Virus record (IMG/VR): IMGVR_UViG_3300045971_000577
Location: 186,001-250,000 of that record
Direction: 5' to 3' (one strand)
DNA length: 64,000 bases
From: a virus
In this document: positions 44,501 through 56,408 of the stretch, in pieces
How the letters are laid out: every line of letters starts with the position of its first letter
How positions within the stretch are numbered: the first letter of the stretch is position 1
Made by a program: the position numbers and the translations under genes
The notes under the pieces: generated by a model
Database searches by the model: none
What the model was told of the DNA's origin: nothing
What the model saw: only the letters and a program-made list of their open reading frames with translations

Positions 44501-45172
44501 TTATGCTTTTAGGGATGAACTTGCTGCTAATGCAAGTTGGGTACGGTTTCTAACACCATACTCTTTCAAGATTGCACTCATGTGAATCTTTACTGTACTT
44601 TCGGATATCTTCAGGGCACTTGCTATCTTCTTGTTTGACAATCCACGATTGCATACAAGCGATAATACTTGATTTTGACGAGTGGTAAGGTGTATACCTG
44701 CAGCGCGGGTTGGCTTTATTTCAATCACAGAACTACCTGCTACATCACGTGGCCAGTGGCTGTGTCCTTGTAGAAGTCTTCTTAGAGCCACCACTGCTGG
44801 CTCATATCCGTATCTAGATACTGCGGGGACTACACCCATTAGTTCGGTACCTTGCATTGCTTTGATAAATGTATGATTGCATGGTTCTGATAAGACTACC
44901 GCCATATGCATTTTTGTAGAGAACGAAATACATCTATGCATTGTAGAAATCATGCCAACTATTTCATTTATGGTTATTTCTTTATCGCATAATGCACCTG
45001 CATCTACCAAAATTAGTAACGGTGTCATATCGAGAAGAGAAATCATGCCAATCCTAGTTATGAGTAATGCCCACGAAGTGCATACCTCAATTGTAGATCC
45101 TATGTCATTTTCGAGACGAAGTATTAGAGACTGATCGATAATCGATGGATCTGCGTGAAAATATACTATCAT
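44501..45172 (-). CDS. LuxR/NarL-type transcription regulator
   Basis: 223 aa. The C-terminal helix-turn-helix is canonical LuxR (HLTTRQNQVLSLVCNRGLSN, KKIASALKISESTVKIHMSA, ILKEYGVRNRTQLALAA). The N-terminal 120 residues look like a degenerate receiver or sensor fold without an obvious phospho-acceptor. It acts on DNA in the cytoplasm. A strong CGGAGGG ribosome-binding site, a TATAAT -10 and a dyad in place of the -35 suggest autoregulation. LuxR-type factors are rare in phages. Confidence 0.88.
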   Translation of the reverse strand: MIVYFHADPSIIDQSLILRLENDIGSTIEVCTSWALLITRIGMISLLDMTPLLILVDAGALCDKEITINEIVGMISTMHRCISFSTKMHMAVVLSEPCNHTFIKAMQGTELMGVVPAVSRYGYEPAVVALRRLLQGHSHWPRDVAGSSVIEIKPTRAAGIHLTTRQNQVLSLVCNRGLSNKKIASALKISESTVKIHMSAILKEYGVRNRTQLALAASSSLKA

Positions 45173-49045: not shown

Positions 49046-49072
49046 ACTCTACCTTGCAAAAAGTCATAGATA

Positions 49073-49089
49073 AAGGGCCGAAGCCCCTT
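49073..49089 (-). terminator. Hairpin after the Ro60-like gene
   Basis: AAGGGGC-TTC-GGCCCTT followed by TATC, 16 bp past the stop; a short GC-rich stem with a weak T-run. Confidence 0.55.
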
Positions 49090-49105
49090 ATCGTCTTACG
49101 ACCTC

Positions 49106-50527
49106 TTAGAAGTCGTACTTTTGAACCATGACGGTTTCAAGCATGATGCTGATTGGAGTCATTTCCTTACCACCCAGCACGCTCTTCACAATGCTTGGCG
49201 AGAAGCCAGATACCAACGCAGCACCGACCTTGTTGTAGGTCACAGGGCTGTTTCCGGCGCGACCGTTCAAGTTCCAGAACACAACTTGCGGGACCTTGTA
49301 GCCAGCCGCAGCGTATTCCTTCTCAATGAACTCCATCGCAGAAACGCTAACCGCAGCGCCACCGCCATAACGGCCACCAGTTGTGCCTGCTGTTACACAA
49401 GCATCAAACTCCATGTCCGAAAGGATAAGCACCTTGGTAGGCATTTCCTTCTGATCAACCTTACCCTTCACGGCCGCACCAAGAATCAGCTTGAATACTG
49501 CTGCAAGGTCGGTGTTCATTGCCCAATCCGAACGGTTCATCGCGTCGTAACGCTGACCCAAGTCACCTGTCAACTTAACCATCGATGGCGAGCCACTGAA
49601 GGTTACAAAGGTGTCCTTGAATACACCGCCCATACGCTCGGAAACGTACAAACCCAACGACACTGCAACATCCAGAGCAGTTACGCTACCAGACACTTCA
49701 GAACTCATCGAACCCGATACGTCAACGACCGGCATGATGTTCTCGTCCGAACCTTCCAAGTAGTTAGGCAGAGCCTTCCACTGTTCGATCGAAACGGTAC
49801 GATCACCGGACTTCAACGAACGGATAACGTCGTATGGGTACGACACGCTCGCGTTGATCTTGGTTTCACCAGCCACCAGTGCAGCCTTGTAAGCACCGTA
49901 TCCCGAAGGATCGTGCTTCAAGAATGCCTTCTGGTAACGACCAGCAGCAACCGAAGGAACGTGAGGGTATGTGATACCTGTCCACTCCTGCGCACACATC
50001 TTCTGCTCGACAGTGTTGGACAAGCCAACTACGAGCTTACGATATTCCTTGGGAGTTAGACGCAAGTAGGAGCGAATCTTGTTCGCTTCCGCGCCCTGAC
50101 GAGGCATCCACTTTGCGCACAAACCGTCCTTCACGTCGTTCAACGCAAAAGCGATCATACGCAGAGCTTCACGCTCCAATGTGGTACCAAAAGTCAGCAA
50201 AACGTCGTCCCAGCGACCCAGTTCCGGAACCTTCACCAACAGGCGCGAAGCCAATACGGGTTCAGTCTTCAGAACATAGGAGAACAACTTACGGAATGTT
50301 TCACGCTCACCAGCACCACCACGTGCATCACGTGCCCACTGAAGGACGCGGATTGCGACTTCGCTGTCTTCTGCCAAGGCAGCAGCGAAAGTAGAAGTGA
50401 TGTCCTTACCACGGCTTGCGCCAGCAAGGAAGAAGAGGTCCACGTTCTTGTTCAACGAGGATGCGTTTGTAACTGCGCCGTTAGTTGTGGTTGCGCTCGA
50501 GTTTACTGCTTCAAATAGTGTTGTCAT
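49106..50527 (-). CDS. Ro60/TROVE-like HEAT plus vWA protein (DUF2828-like)
   Basis: 473 aa from the ATG at 50525-50527 (AAAGGA upstream). Residues 1-270 are a helical-repeat ring-like part (KNVDLFFLAGASRGKDITST, VLQWARDARGGAGERETFRK, LVKVPELGRWDDVLLTFG). Residues 275-470 are a von Willebrand A domain with the MIDAS motif PVVDVSGSMSS, a middle NTDLAAVF threonine and ILSDMEFD aspartate. This is the Ro60 plan (RNA-binding HEAT ring plus vWA). A non-coding stretch with permuted tRNA-like modules directly precedes it, as Y RNA genes do beside bacterial Ro60. Higher GC than its neighbours suggests transfer. Confidence 0.8.
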   Translation of the reverse strand: MTTLFEAVNSSATTTNGAVTNASSLNKNVDLFFLAGASRGKDITSTFAAALAEDSEVAIRVLQWARDARGGAGERETFRKLFSYVLKTEPVLASRLLVKVPELGRWDDVLLTFGTTLEREALRMIAFALNDVKDGLCAKWMPRQGAEANKIRSYLRLTPKEYRKLVVGLSNTVEQKMCAQEWTGITYPHVPSVAAGRYQKAFLKHDPSGYGAYKAALVAGETKINASVSYPYDVIRSLKSGDRTVSIEQWKALPNYLEGSDENIMPVVDVSGSMSSEVSGSVTALDVAVSLGLYVSERMGGVFKDTFVTFSGSPSMVKLTGDLGQRYDAMNRSDWAMNTDLAAVFKLILGAAVKGKVDQKEMPTKVLILSDMEFDACVTAGTTGGRYGGGAAVSVSAMEFIEKEYAAAGYKVPQVVFWNLNGRAGNSPVTYNKVGAALVSGFSPSIVKSVLGGKEMTPISIMLETVMVQKYDF

Positions 50528-50544
50528 AGTGTTTTCCTTTATCA

Positions 50545-50656
50545 GAATCATTTTTTATACTGTTGCCTATACCAATTCGGCTACCTTGCTGTTACCAACA
50601 AGGGTGGGACTCGAACCCACAACTCACAGTTGCTTAGTTAATTGCGGAACTGATTC
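50545..50656 (-). ncRNA. Candidate Y RNA, module 2 (tRNA-like, permuted)
   Basis: As transcribed, outer helix GAATCA/TGATTC, then anticodon-like stem ACTGT/ACAGT. Inside these come a five-base variable part GAGTT, a T-arm GTGGG-TTCGAGT-CCCAC, a capped acceptor-like stem CCTTGTT/AGCAAGG, TA, and a D-arm GCC...TTGGTATA-GGC. All tRNA parts are present but the T-arm comes before the D-arm, so the ends meet at the anticodon side. That is the layout reported for YrlA-type Y RNAs. It ends ten bases before the Ro60-like ribosome-binding site. Confidence 0.6.
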
Positions 50657-50794
50657 ATTAGAATGAAATCAAGATTATTGTTTTACGTTGACCTGTGTGC
50701 TGCCGTTACACTAAGCTACTCCGGAGTCGAACCGGTCCCCTGGTTTGGATTGTAAGTTTTTGGTTGCTGTAATAATCTTTTAGAAATAAATCAG
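50650..50794 (-). ncRNA. Candidate Y RNA, module 1 (tRNA-like, permuted)
   Basis: Outer helix CTGATT/AATCAG (50789-50794 with 50650-50655) and a 9-bp perfect helix AAGATTATT/AATAATCTT (50771-50779 with 50671-50679) with an internal loop between. They enclose a T-arm CCGG-TTCGACT-CCGG (50721-50735), immediately followed by AGTA and a D-arm GCT-TAGTGTAACGGC-AGC. The acceptor-like stem is missing or very short. The outer helix shares bases with module 2, so the two are either alternative folds or processed separately. Confidence 0.55.
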
Positions 50795-50928
50795 ATTCGG
50801 CGTGGCGAGTTTTTGCTTTCCCCTCCAGAAAGGTTCTTAGTTAATACCCTTTCGGGTGGTTGCTAATATGCTATATTTTAGTTGTTGCTGAAACGAATCG
50901 TTAGTAATGTTGTTGCAAGTCTCGTAGT
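50795..50928. other. Leader upstream of the candidate Y RNAs
   Basis: No gene. Two small hairpins are visible on the minus strand, ACCC-GAAA-GGGT near 50850 and CTTTC-TGGAGGG-GAAAG near 50825. They may be part of the same non-coding transcript. Confidence 0.4.
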
Positions 50929-51312
50929 TTACAAGTTCTTTAGCGACATGTCAATGACTTCGGTTGTAAAGTGCGAAGTAGGACTACCTACACCCGGATC
51001 AACTAAAATATCGACACCGATCATAATATTTTTACTGTCTTCGTCCGATTGGAGATCAAACATTAGATAATATCCACCCGTGCCAGTAAATGAAAGCCAT
51101 GCATCTGGCATTCTGACTTTTGTATTACGTTCCTTAATGATGGTGTTTGCATTTGCACATGCATATCGTACCATATCGGTATGAATCAAATACAATACAT
51201 CATGCACCGATATCGGTGCAGACGGCCATTTCCTGACTGCCGGGTTATTATCCCAAATATAGGAGGCTGCTGCATGAAGTGATACAAGATTGTAGCAGAG
51301 TTCAATTTTCAT
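50929..51312 (-). CDS. Hypothetical protein upstream of the Y RNA region
   Basis: 127 aa from the ATG at 51310-51312. Helical first half (YNLVSLHAAASYIWDN, ISVHDVLYLIHTDMVRYACA), beta second half (WLSFTGTGGYYLMFDLQSDE). No family is recognised. By position it is co-transcribed with the Y RNA and Ro60-like gene. Confidence 0.6.
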   Translation of the reverse strand: MKIELCYNLVSLHAAASYIWDNNPAVRKWPSAPISVHDVLYLIHTDMVRYACANANTIIKERNTKVRMPDAWLSFTGTGGYYLMFDLQSDEDSKNIMIGVDILVDPGVGSPTSHFTTEVIDMSLKNL

Positions 51313-51363
51313 TATGATGTGGTTTAGATAAGACAGCGTGGTGTAAGGGACCTGTAGAGTCAA

Positions 51364-51624
51364 TATCTTACCGTAGCTCGATATGTTATATACATGCTAT
51401 CGGGCCTTACCCCGAGATCGAACCTTTTACATCGTCCGAGGATGTTTGTTAGTTCTTATACAGGGTTCATTGCCTAATCATACAAAAAGGCTCCGCCTGT
51501 GTCGAGTGCTAACTACAATACCGCCTTGCAGCGATGATTATTTGCTGTATCCACGCCTTAAAATATACTACAAGCTGTATTATGCAGTAGTTCTATTTAC
51601 CTGTCAACCTGCGGCTTGCCGGTT
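51364..51624. other. 261-bp intergenic stretch with a decayed tRNA-like trace
   Basis: No convincing frame. On the minus strand 51429-51445 forms ACATC-CTCGGAC-GATGT, an anticodon arm reading CGG (Pro). The adjacent GGTTCGATC has no pairing T-stem and no acceptor is found, so it is at best a tRNA remnant. Confidence 0.35.
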
Positions 51625-52846: not shown

Positions 52847-53680
52847 ATGATAAATAAAATTATGTCAATACCCTACACATATCTAATCGGCTGGTCAGAC
52901 CATAATCTATGGTACTATGGAGTACGATATGCAAAGACATGCAATCCAAATGATTTATGGGTAACATATTTTACCAGTTCTAAGAAAGTAAGAGAATATA
53001 GAGAACAGTTCGGAGAACCAAATATAAGGCAAATAAGAAAAGTATTTTCAACTACAAAATCTGCCAAAGTGTGGGAAGATAAGGTATTAGCAAGATTGAA
53101 AGTTTGTAATAATCCAAAATGGATAAACCAATCAAATAACTACTCATTTGCATCAGTCGATAAATCGTGGAACGATGGATTAACAAAAAACACCGATAAC
53201 AGATTACAGAATATATCAAATAAAATTTCTGCTAAACGAAAAGAAAAATACTGGAAATCCGGTGATTACATTCGATCAACCGATCAAGTCATTAAAAATC
53301 GTATGTTTCAAATAACAAGAAATAATCCAAATTTTATATTTGAAACATACGATCTATTTGCCGAATATTGTAATAAAGAATATGTGTCAGGTAAGTCTAT
53401 AACAGATATATCAAAATCGGTAAATGTCGGTATGGTTACAGTAAAACTTGCCATTGAACATCAGACCGGTGATATGCCGATAATCGATCAATCATGGTCA
53501 AAACTTAAGAAGAACAACCCGGAATTACCATTCGACGATTATAAAGATTTATGCGACTATCTATACTCGGAAATATTAATAAAAGGTCGAAAAAGATTTC
53601 ATCTTCGGAAAGAACTTAATATTTCCGAAGATGCTATAAGAAGAGCTATTCGTGTCTCAGAAGCCACTCGTTGTTTATGA
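52847..53680 (+). CDS. GIY-YIG-like homing endonuclease
   Basis: 277 aa; ATG at 52847 (or 52862, MSIPYTYLIGW). The N-terminal nuclease part PYTYLIGWSDHNLWYYGVRY, DLWVTYFTSSKKVREYREQF and AKVWEDKVLARLKV is the diverged GIY-YIG form common in large phages. Two C-terminal helix-turn-helix-like segments follow (ITDISKSVNVGMVTVKLAIE, ELNISEDAIRRAIRV). AT-rich, on the opposite strand to its neighbours, and overlapping the 3' end of the RNA ligase gene by 35 bp. Confidence 0.78.
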   Translation: MINKIMSIPYTYLIGWSDHNLWYYGVRYAKTCNPNDLWVTYFTSSKKVREYREQFGEPNIRQIRKVFSTTKSAKVWEDKVLARLKVCNNPKWINQSNNYSFASVDKSWNDGLTKNTDNRLQNISNKISAKRKEKYWKSGDYIRSTDQVIKNRMFQITRNNPNFIFETYDLFAEYCNKEYVSGKSITDISKSVNVGMVTVKLAIEHQTGDMPIIDQSWSKLKKNNPELPFDDYKDLCDYLYSEILIKGRKRFHLRKELNISEDAIRRAIRVSEATRCL

Positions 53681-54734
53681 CCTTAAATGAAAATTTACCG
53701 TCTATTCTCTTAAAGACCAATCCTTCTCTAATCAGCGAGTTGATAGATGGTCCTTTAGCATAGTTCAATAATCCATCGACACCGTAAATTCTTAAATCTT
53801 CTAAAGATTCAGACATAGCAATAACCGGTACATGTTCGACCATATTTTTATCGAGGCCTAATTCGTGTAATCTGTATACTACTTCATGCCGCTGATGCGG
53901 AGCAAGATAACATGCATTATCAATATCATAAATGTCAAATATGTGCAATTTATGCGATGTAAAGCCCTCTTTGTTACCCTGTATACCGGGCCCTTGCAAC
54001 TCGCCCTGTACAGCGAAATTTTCGCCTAATTCCCGCAAAGCGTCACGCAAGCCTGAGTCAATAAACATGAGCACAAGGCTATTAAACGCATTGCTGTCAT
54101 CAGTTTTCAGTTCCCAGTTTCTGCCGCACACGCCTTCAAAGCCGCTACGGAAGAAACCAGTAAACGAAGTACCATCCACTTTCATGGTAATCTCGTAACG
54201 AGAATCTTCATTCTCGACGAAAATATCATGCACAATGTTTTGGCAACGTTCCTGATCTGTCCTCTGAATGAAGCTAGGGAAGTTTCCACGAATCTGCCCA
54301 GCAAGTTCTGTAGGAACAGGAGGTTCGTATTTCTGCACACCAAGCAGGTCAGTTACATCATCACCCTCGTGAAGAGGACAAGCATGTTCGGCATTGAAGA
54401 ATGTATAGGACCATTCTGTTGCAAGTGTGTCCGAAATAGGAATCAGCAAGCCCTGCGAAACTTGGCCACGCAGTTTTACTGTTTTCAGTCTGAAACCTTC
54501 TTGCTCACCCATTCTCTTGAATGAGCTTTTACGCAGGAATTCAAACTCTTCACGGATAGGCAAGAAACTGTCAATTTCAAAGTAGACGCAAAGATCGCCT
54601 ACAGCGAATTCACCTTTCTTGACAACAACTTTCCAGCCGTCAACAGTTGCTACCTCGATAGCGTCTGCTTCAGGAATAGGGTTCAGTTCTAGAATTTTTC
54701 TGATTGTTGCTAGGTGTCTCATTACGTGACTCAT
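53646..54734 (-). CDS. RNA ligase of the DRB0094 (Rnl5) type
   Basis: 362 aa. N-terminal OB-fold-like domain (ADAIEVATVDGWKVVVKKGE, GDLCVYFEIDSFLP). The ligase core has motif I MKVDGTSFTGFF near 185 (nucleotidyl lysine in KVDG), motif III-like VCGRNWEL, IV FAVQGELQGPGIQG, and the IVa/V pair EGLVFKRI and KFSFKVINNEWLL. The Deinococcus enzyme seals 3'-OH/5'-phosphate breaks, mostly in RNA. With a Ro60-like protein nearby, this points to RNA repair. Confidence 0.88.
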   Translation of the reverse strand: MSHVMRHLATIRKILELNPIPEADAIEVATVDGWKVVVKKGEFAVGDLCVYFEIDSFLPIREEFEFLRKSSFKRMGEQEGFRLKTVKLRGQVSQGLLIPISDTLATEWSYTFFNAEHACPLHEGDDVTDLLGVQKYEPPVPTELAGQIRGNFPSFIQRTDQERCQNIVHDIFVENEDSRYEITMKVDGTSFTGFFRSGFEGVCGRNWELKTDDSNAFNSLVLMFIDSGLRDALRELGENFAVQGELQGPGIQGNKEGFTSHKLHIFDIYDIDNACYLAPHQRHEVVYRLHELGLDKNMVEHVPVIAMSESLEDLRIYGVDGLLNYAKGPSINSLIREGLVFKRIDGKFSFKVINNEWLLRHE

Positions 54735-55475: not shown

Positions 55476-56408
55476 TTACTTCTTCTTAGCAGGTGCAGGT
55501 GCAGCAACCTGCATGGTCGGCAGTTCGTACCACGGCAACACACCGCGATCCGATTCCTCAACCGATTGCCAGTTCGGAGAACCTTCGTCCTTCAGTTGCG
55601 GCAGAGCCTTGTAGAAGCATGCGCGAAGGTGAGCTTGTGCCTTTACCTTGGCTTCAGTGCTGTACTTGCGTGTCATCAGCGTGGCCAGAGGAGCCAGTGT
55701 CTTCACCGGACCAGAAGTCATGCCCTTGTAGCTGATGTTGGCCGGGCGATAGACCGTCGAAACACGGGCAGCGATCGCATCGCCGATCGGCACAATCTTG
55801 TACTGTGCAGGATTCAGTTTCTCGATGTTGGGCAGTGGTGCTGCGCCGACGAAAACTGCGGCAGCAATCTCACCACTGTTCAACGCAGCGATAACCTGGT
55901 CACCCTTGTCGAACGGAATAACCTCGAATCCACCCTGGCCCTGGCCTTGTAGGATTCGAGCAGTGAACACGCCCCCGCCGGCAGCACCAACCTTGTAGCC
56001 GGCCGTATCCTGCAAACTATTGAAGTTCACAGTCATGACATAGTTCTTCTTGGTTTTGGATTCACGCAGCATCAGCACGTGGATCGGTTCTGGATAAAGC
56101 GCAACCAGCGTCTGGAAACGTGCATAGCTGGGATCGGCCATCGAGTTCGCAAGGAACACGTCGGAGTGCATGAATGCAGCCTGAGCCTTGTTATTCACAA
56201 GTGAATCCAAGTTACCGGGGGCGCCACCAGTCACACCGTGTGCAGGCTGGACGGTGAAGTTGTCATCCGAACAGGCGCCGATGATTTCACCGAGCATCTT
56301 GGCATAGGTTCCACTGGAACTATCTGCGGCAACAACAATCTTGCTATCTTGTGCCATGCTAACCGCGGAAATCGCAGCCAGGGCAATGGCAGTAAGGAAT
56401 TTCTTCAT
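55476..56408 (-). CDS. TAXI-family TRAP solute-binding protein
   Basis: 310 aa. Sec signal peptide MKKFLTAIALAAISAVSMAQ. Mature part IVVAADSSSGTYAKMLGEI, AHGVTGGAPGNLDSLVNNKA, AAFMHSDVFLANS, YKVGAAGGGVFTARIL and FDKGDQVIAALNSGEIAAAV follow the TAXI receptor layout. These periplasmic proteins hand organic acids or amino acids to a TRAP permease; no permease is present here, so it would have to work with a host permease or scavenge alone. High GC for this phage, suggesting host origin. Confidence 0.88.
   Translation of the reverse strand: MKKFLTAIALAAISAVSMAQDSKIVVAADSSSGTYAKMLGEIIGACSDDNFTVQPAHGVTGGAPGNLDSLVNNKAQAAFMHSDVFLANSMADPSYARFQTLVALYPEPIHVLMLRESKTKKNYVMTVNFNSLQDTAGYKVGAAGGGVFTARILQGQGQGGFEVIPFDKGDQVIAALNSGEIAAAVFVGAAPLPNIEKLNPAQYKIVPIGDAIAARVSTVYRPANISYKGMTSGPVKTLAPLATLMTRKYSTEAKVKAQAHLRACFYKALPQLKDEGSPNWQSVEESDRGVLPWYELPTMQVAAPAPAKKK

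Follow-up and report, generated by a model that had tools for sequence, protein, structure and literature searches.

Chen et al. are said to have reported Y RNAs in some phages already in 2014. Among the closest described systems is the bacterial pair of Rsr, a Ro60 protein, and its RNA YrlA (Rfam RF02553; Chen et al., 2014), as presented in PMC7790460 and PMC4726728. For the bacterial rsr-yrl-rtcBA operon a role as inhibitor of an anticodon nuclease has been proposed; in the sole published test YrlA was left uncut by the nuclease, which fits inhibition without proving it (PMC7790460). In the Rsr-Y RNA-PNPase particle of Deinococcus, the Y RNA tethers PNPase (PMC4726728). TROVE proteins have been found by genomics in a small subset of jumbo phages (PMC7824862), and the Ro60 proteins of mycobacteriophages and of Thermus phage phiLo (PMC12363180; PDB 9l5y) are, like the one predicted here, phage proteins with a Ro60 fold.

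The window analysed here is a stretch of 64,000 nucleotides from a giant-phage genome (positions 186,001 to 250,000 of IMG/VR record IMGVR_UViG_3300045971_000577). On its minus strand, behind a promoter-like site, three RNA modules designated U0, U1 and U2 lie upstream of a gene for a protein with DUF2828 and DUF7788 domains (Table 1). The original prediction had described two permuted tRNA-like units beside a Ro60-like protein; both are present, as U1 and U2, with the T-arm ahead of the D-arm where it had been placed, while the third module, U0, had been overlooked. Taken together, the sequences make it very probable that the DUF2828 protein and the module RNAs belong together, as a Ro-like particle with an RNA class of its own.

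Table 1. Features of the DUF2828 locus and its surroundings, in window coordinates
Feature	Position	Strand	Details and basis
Promoter-like site TTGACA-17-TAAACT	50926..50954	-	Ahead of the modules; 10/12 consensus matches in a consensus scan, by itself no proof of function
Module U0	50790..50899	-	Outer stem GATTCG/CGAATC, then TTTCAGCAA; non-tRNA insert, probable pseudoknot; TGAT at end; stem scan, aligned orthologues, pair counts
Module U1	50667..50779	-	Outer stem AAGATTATT/AATAATCTT (50779-50771/50679-50671), TACAGCAA; T-arm 50735-50721; D-arm 50711-50697; no acceptor stem
Module U2	50541..50656	-	Outer stem GAATCA/TGATTC (50656-50651/50550-50545), TTCCGCAA; anticodon stem ACTGT/ACAGT (50630-50626/50563-50559); T-arm 50620-50604; acceptor hairpin 50603-50597/50590-50584; D-arm 50581-50565
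Shine-Dalgarno-like AAAGG	50536..50540	-	About 4 nt past the U2 outer stem; sequence, leader statistics in relatives
Predicted Ro-like DUF2828/DUF7788 protein, 473 aa	49106..50527	-	473 codons, ATG at 50527, gene end at 49106; Pfam, PHROG 850, AlphaFold, Foldseek, invariant residues
Terminator-like hairpin 3' of the gene	49069..49092	-	Consensus scan
RNA ligase	53646..54734	-	About 3 kb upstream; Pfam RNA_ligase 2e-17, PHROG 968; near the Ro-like gene in relatives too; possible functional neighbour

The 473-aa protein matches the Pfam families DUF7788 (1.6e-49) and DUF2828 (4e-24), as well as PHROG 850, in which it is called RNA-binding. Its AlphaFold model, made with 43 relatives (pLDDT 83, pTM 0.85), has a HEAT-like ring and a vWA fold, the latter with the invariant MIDAS residues D269-x-S-G-S. 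When this model was compared with the PDB using Foldseek, the best ten matches were all Ro60/TROVE structures (E 1e-10 to 1e-6, TM 0.45-0.64), the likeness running along its whole length, so that the HEAT+vWA plan recognised earlier is borne out and a Ro60 fold is supported for the predicted structure. The identification as Ro60 does not extend to sequence: the TROVE model (PF05731) matches neither this protein nor, at E up to 1, any of 43 DUF2828 family members, and the vWA_Ro60 model gives weak matches in four of those 43 (best E 0.016). The protein thus appears to have the Ro fold but to belong to a different sequence family, unlike that of phiLo, which was deposited as a TROVE-type Ro60 and for which no description of an RNA class was found. 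Relatives are present in 681 phage records, and in the viral library they include proteins of giant viruses (Pithovirus, Marseillevirus, Mimiviridae).

The inserts of U1 and U2 are permuted tRNA elbows. U2 corresponds to a tRNA whose anticodon loop has been opened and whose acceptor end has been closed, the order being a 5-bp anticodon stem, a 5-nt variable loop, a 5-bp T-arm, a 7-bp acceptor hairpin, UA and the D-arm; both helices proposed for it were located, and its minimum-energy fold is the entire predicted structure (-30.4 kcal/mol, z -2.15). In U1 the T-arm and D-arm follow one another with no acceptor stem between them. The 9-bp outer helix proposed for this module was likewise located, while the inner 6-bp helix was not supported. 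U1 did not fold better than its shuffled versions (z 0.07); its structure is supported by covariation in orthologues (0.478 vs 0.209). The orthologues of U0 have a probable pseudoknot in common, for which the alignment and pair counts provide modest support.

These modules belong to a family with a shared handle, recognised by reading the regions upstream of DUF2828 relatives: a terminal stem, 2-4 nt, the motif (U)UACAGCAA or CCGCAA (CAGCAA or CCGCAA in the DNA), the insert, the complementary 3' strand, and UGA or UGU. A scan for this handle in up to 700 nt upstream of the genes gave 74 occurrences as against 8 in shuffled sequence; since such a scan selects on pairing, tests that do not were added. 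In leaders from close protein relatives the stem is paired in all 11 tabulated, with differing sequences. A search for the permuted order of T-arm, acceptor hairpin and D-arm found 32 candidates on the gene strand, a few of them tandem tRNAs, and none on the opposite strand; most of these modules, though not all, have the handle. Among 20 aligned permuted modules, 26 of 28 pairs have changed on both sides, with a covariation of 0.701 vs 0.210 when shuffled; the outer stem is 100% paired in this alignment, but the modules had been trimmed on that stem, and the anticodon stem, poorly aligned, is 40% paired. Covariation in related phages, whose absence would have told against the original prediction, is found both in these 20 modules and in the U1 orthologues; of the two outcomes named in advance as refuting that prediction, neither was observed.

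A model, R1, was built from phage modules; it scores U1, which was outside its training set, at 56.9 bits in its own genome. Run out of sample on 59 bacterial DUF2828 loci that had been fetched by protein alone, R1 gave 80 matches, 79 of them on the gene strand and most within 600 nt upstream. R1 also matches tandem tRNAs (41.6 bits in T4), and for this reason only scores of about 47 bits and above, a threshold chosen after the scores were known, were counted in whole genomes; on that basis 13 of 20 DUF2828 phage records have at least one match, and several of the others hold other module types. Mycobacteriophages Snenia and BobsGarage each have three modules beside a DUF2828 relative. Modules of this family are found next to DUF2828 genes of bacteria as well as of many phages.

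Many inserts, such as that of U0, have no recognisable likeness to tRNA, while other modules carry a lone anticodon arm with an authentic-looking loop (CU, anticodon, AA or AC). Anticodon arms with a 5-bp stem number 10 among 95 phage modules, where 0.3 would be expected, and 11 among 85 bacterial ones, where the expectation is 0.17; related loci are not independent. They include Lys UUU, Thr UGU, Ser GCU, Asn GUU, Phe GAA, Asp GUC and Gly GCC, among others. One, TTACA-CTGTTAA-TGTAA (Asn GUU), lies in this genome beyond the window, at 275566-275622; further modules of the genome are at 252770-252828 and 266620-266684. Permuted tRNA genes, in which the 3' half precedes the 5' half, are known from algae and archaea. 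The elbow modules also have the 3' half first, and some retain ACCA between the halves; they differ in having no anticodon loop, the anticodon stem continuing instead into the handle stem.

As to the YrlA-type Y RNAs originally proposed, tRNA-like RNAs of Y type do stand beside the gene, but the YrlA covariance model gives U2 27.8 bits and the best relative 40.1, as against a gathering cut-off of 69, and U2 covers only positions 23-85 of the model. Elbow modules and YrlA have in common the T-arm ahead of the D-arm and a core closed by the acceptor hairpin; this core order is present in U2, whereas U1 has no acceptor hairpin. The consensus outer, Ro60-binding stem of YrlA was not found, full-length alignments of relatives leaving the inner helix of the outer domain deleted or unpaired. 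To judge from these alignments, only the tRNA-like core resembles YrlA, and the outer stem, presumably the protein-binding part, is of another kind; membership in YrlA was rejected, the likeness being confined to the core. The DUF2828 loci share with Rsr-YrlA the Ro fold, an RNA gene adjoining the protein gene and, in some loci, an RtcB neighbourhood. They differ in several respects: the protein is DUF2828/DUF7788 where Rsr is TROVE, the terminal stem is another and goes with the CAGCAA motif, modules are numerous in each locus, and there are lone anticodon arms and a module at the ribosome-binding site. The system is one that would work like Ro60-Y RNA but falls outside the TROVE and YrlA sequence families.

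In 28 of 79 distinct leaders, as against 0.8 expected, the last nucleotide of a module lies 8-48 nt ahead of the start codon, and the module often abuts the ribosome-binding site. The closeness noted at this locus thus recurs across relatives, though the gap here, given as ten bases, is about 4 nt. The leader module varies in content but keeps its position, a pattern suggestive of translational autoregulation; the DUF2828 protein probably limits its own translation through the module beside the ribosome-binding site. The same leader counts, together with the failure of a consensus scan to find a terminator between U2 and the gene, would also suit modules that are leader elements only, for instance sensors of tRNA state controlling the DUF2828 gene, with no action in trans. 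Modules also occur downstream of the gene in some loci, 16-39 kb away in this genome and about 200 kb away in Erwinia phage SNUABM_44, and hence are more than cis elements; the purely cis reading is very unlikely. More improbable still is that the elbow modules represent tRNA genes, permuted or in decay, which give, or once gave, functional tRNAs. The phage genome is rich in tRNAs, and in some permuted modules (L026, L042, L084; Cronobacter phage S13) the acceptor loop begins with ACCA, following the acceptor strand, which suggests that elbow modules originated from (tandem) tRNA genes. Against the tRNA-gene reading, the handle recurs around unrelated inserts, with a conserved and covarying terminal stem and CAGCAA motif, and ARAGORN and the Rfam tRNA model (RF00005) called neither U1 nor U2, the latter giving only a 17.7-bit match that spans both together. 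A functional permuted tRNA as the present role is disfavoured, the anticodon loop being absent.

The explanation we prefer is that the locus encodes a ribonucleoprotein of the Ro60-shaped DUF2828 protein and a family of small RNAs. The modules would be processed into separate RNAs, bound by the protein through the handle (a 6-9 bp stem with its motif and UGA/UGU end), and each would display an insert of its own, in many cases part of a tRNA (a permuted elbow or a lone anticodon arm); with these pieces the particle would engage enzymes that act on tRNA, while the leader module would let the protein curb its own synthesis. The whole of this is somewhat favoured, as is the joint claim that the particle is what it seems and that its inserts engage tRNA enzymes. 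By analogy, the proposed inhibition of an anticodon nuclease by YrlA (PMC7790460) may be counted in its favour; a PADLOC search, which gave no defence match, counts against it, as do the DUF2828 phages lacking a strong R1 match and the many inserts unlike tRNA. That the tRNA pieces are decoys for tRNA-cleaving nucleases is a tentative suggestion, and slightly more doubtful is that they are tethers to repair or decay enzymes, the RNAs being scaffolds that join the Ro-like protein to RNA ligase, RtcB or nucleases, with the pieces serving to dock. Of 80 bacterial DUF2828 genes, 13 have RtcB as a neighbour, as does the gene of Listeria phage LP-048, and an RNA ligase lies near the DUF2828 gene in 11 viral loci, in Salmonella phage Munch and in Erwinia phage SNUABM_44; such neighbours, which speak for tethering, parallel the rsr-yrl-rtcBA operon (PMC7790460) and the Y RNA tether of PNPase, itself a precedent (PMC4726728). 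The variety of anticodon arms is, on the other hand, not obviously needed to dock one enzyme, and the partner is only putative. If the ribonucleoprotein explanation is right, the DUF2828 "RNA-binding protein" genes of the phage records would gain a defined RNA partner, and there would be Ro particles bearing dissected tRNAs and a link to tRNA damage during infection.

A scan with all Rfam families brought out a further likeness: Dictyostelium Class I RNA (RF01414) matches six places in 57 kb, every one of them a module, and two of these modules also give its best two matches over the whole phage genome (E 4.4e-5 and 2.7e-4). The best score, 32.5 bits, is below the gathering cut-off of 41.5, and T4 has a chance match of 24 bits, so common ancestry is not proven. 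Class I RNAs are described as having an AAG start, a 6-bp covarying stem, an 11-nt motif by its 5' strand, a CUGU end and a variable middle, and none were found outside Dictyostelia (PMC7919456). Short modules of this and other genomes likewise have the AAG start, a covarying terminal stem of about 6 bp, a UUACAGCAA-type motif by the 5' strand, a CUGU-like end and a variable middle; examples are those of KVP40 (AAGCAATC-TTTCAGCAA...GATTGC-TGT) and Aeromonas phage Ahp1 (AAGGATGC-TTACAGCAA...GCATCC-TGT). U1 and U2 have a Class I-like handle but are longer. Unlike Class I RNAs, the modules are prokaryotic or of phages, with many inserts tRNA-like and longer, and the known Class I binder, Rnp1A, is an RRM protein (PMC7919456). 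It is conceivable, if rather unlikely, that DUF2828 is a second, widespread Ro lineage whose RNAs form one ancient class (stem plus UUACAGCAA) spanning phages, bacteria and social amoebae, the prokaryotic members bearing a library of elbows and anticodon arms from tRNA, for use against tRNA cleavage or in its repair. Class I RNA would then have a Ro-like partner, a lead on RNAs that are abundant, of unexplained mode of action, and reported as unique to dictyostelids.

Bacillus phage G, intended as a negative control, has a 53-bit permuted tRNA-like RNA lacking CAGCAA, with ACCA in the acceptor loop (L116, 405207-405336), and about 3 kb on from it an ORF that TROVE matches weakly (3.4e-5, below cut-off); no DUF2828 match was obtained in phage G, one of four control phages searched without a positive control. 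RNA and ORF are perhaps a classical Ro60-YrlA pair. The T4 stable RNA rnaC (species 1; L111 909-1172, rnaC + rnaD) ends in a T-arm-like hairpin and is, by model R1, not a module of the DUF2828-linked family. Upstream of the DUF2828 gene of Listeria phage LP-048 there is a near-threshold match to ROOL RNA (L097 427-978; 90 bits vs a cut-off of 99.1). Elsewhere in the window, a second promoter-like site, TTGACA-17-CATAAT (51607-51579), is followed by a non-coding stretch within 51313-51607 that has a T-loop-like GGTTCGATC near 51420, and an NMT1-like substrate-binding protein whose start resembles a signal peptide (55476-56408) and a LuxR-type regulator (44501-45172) are unusual cargo for a phage.
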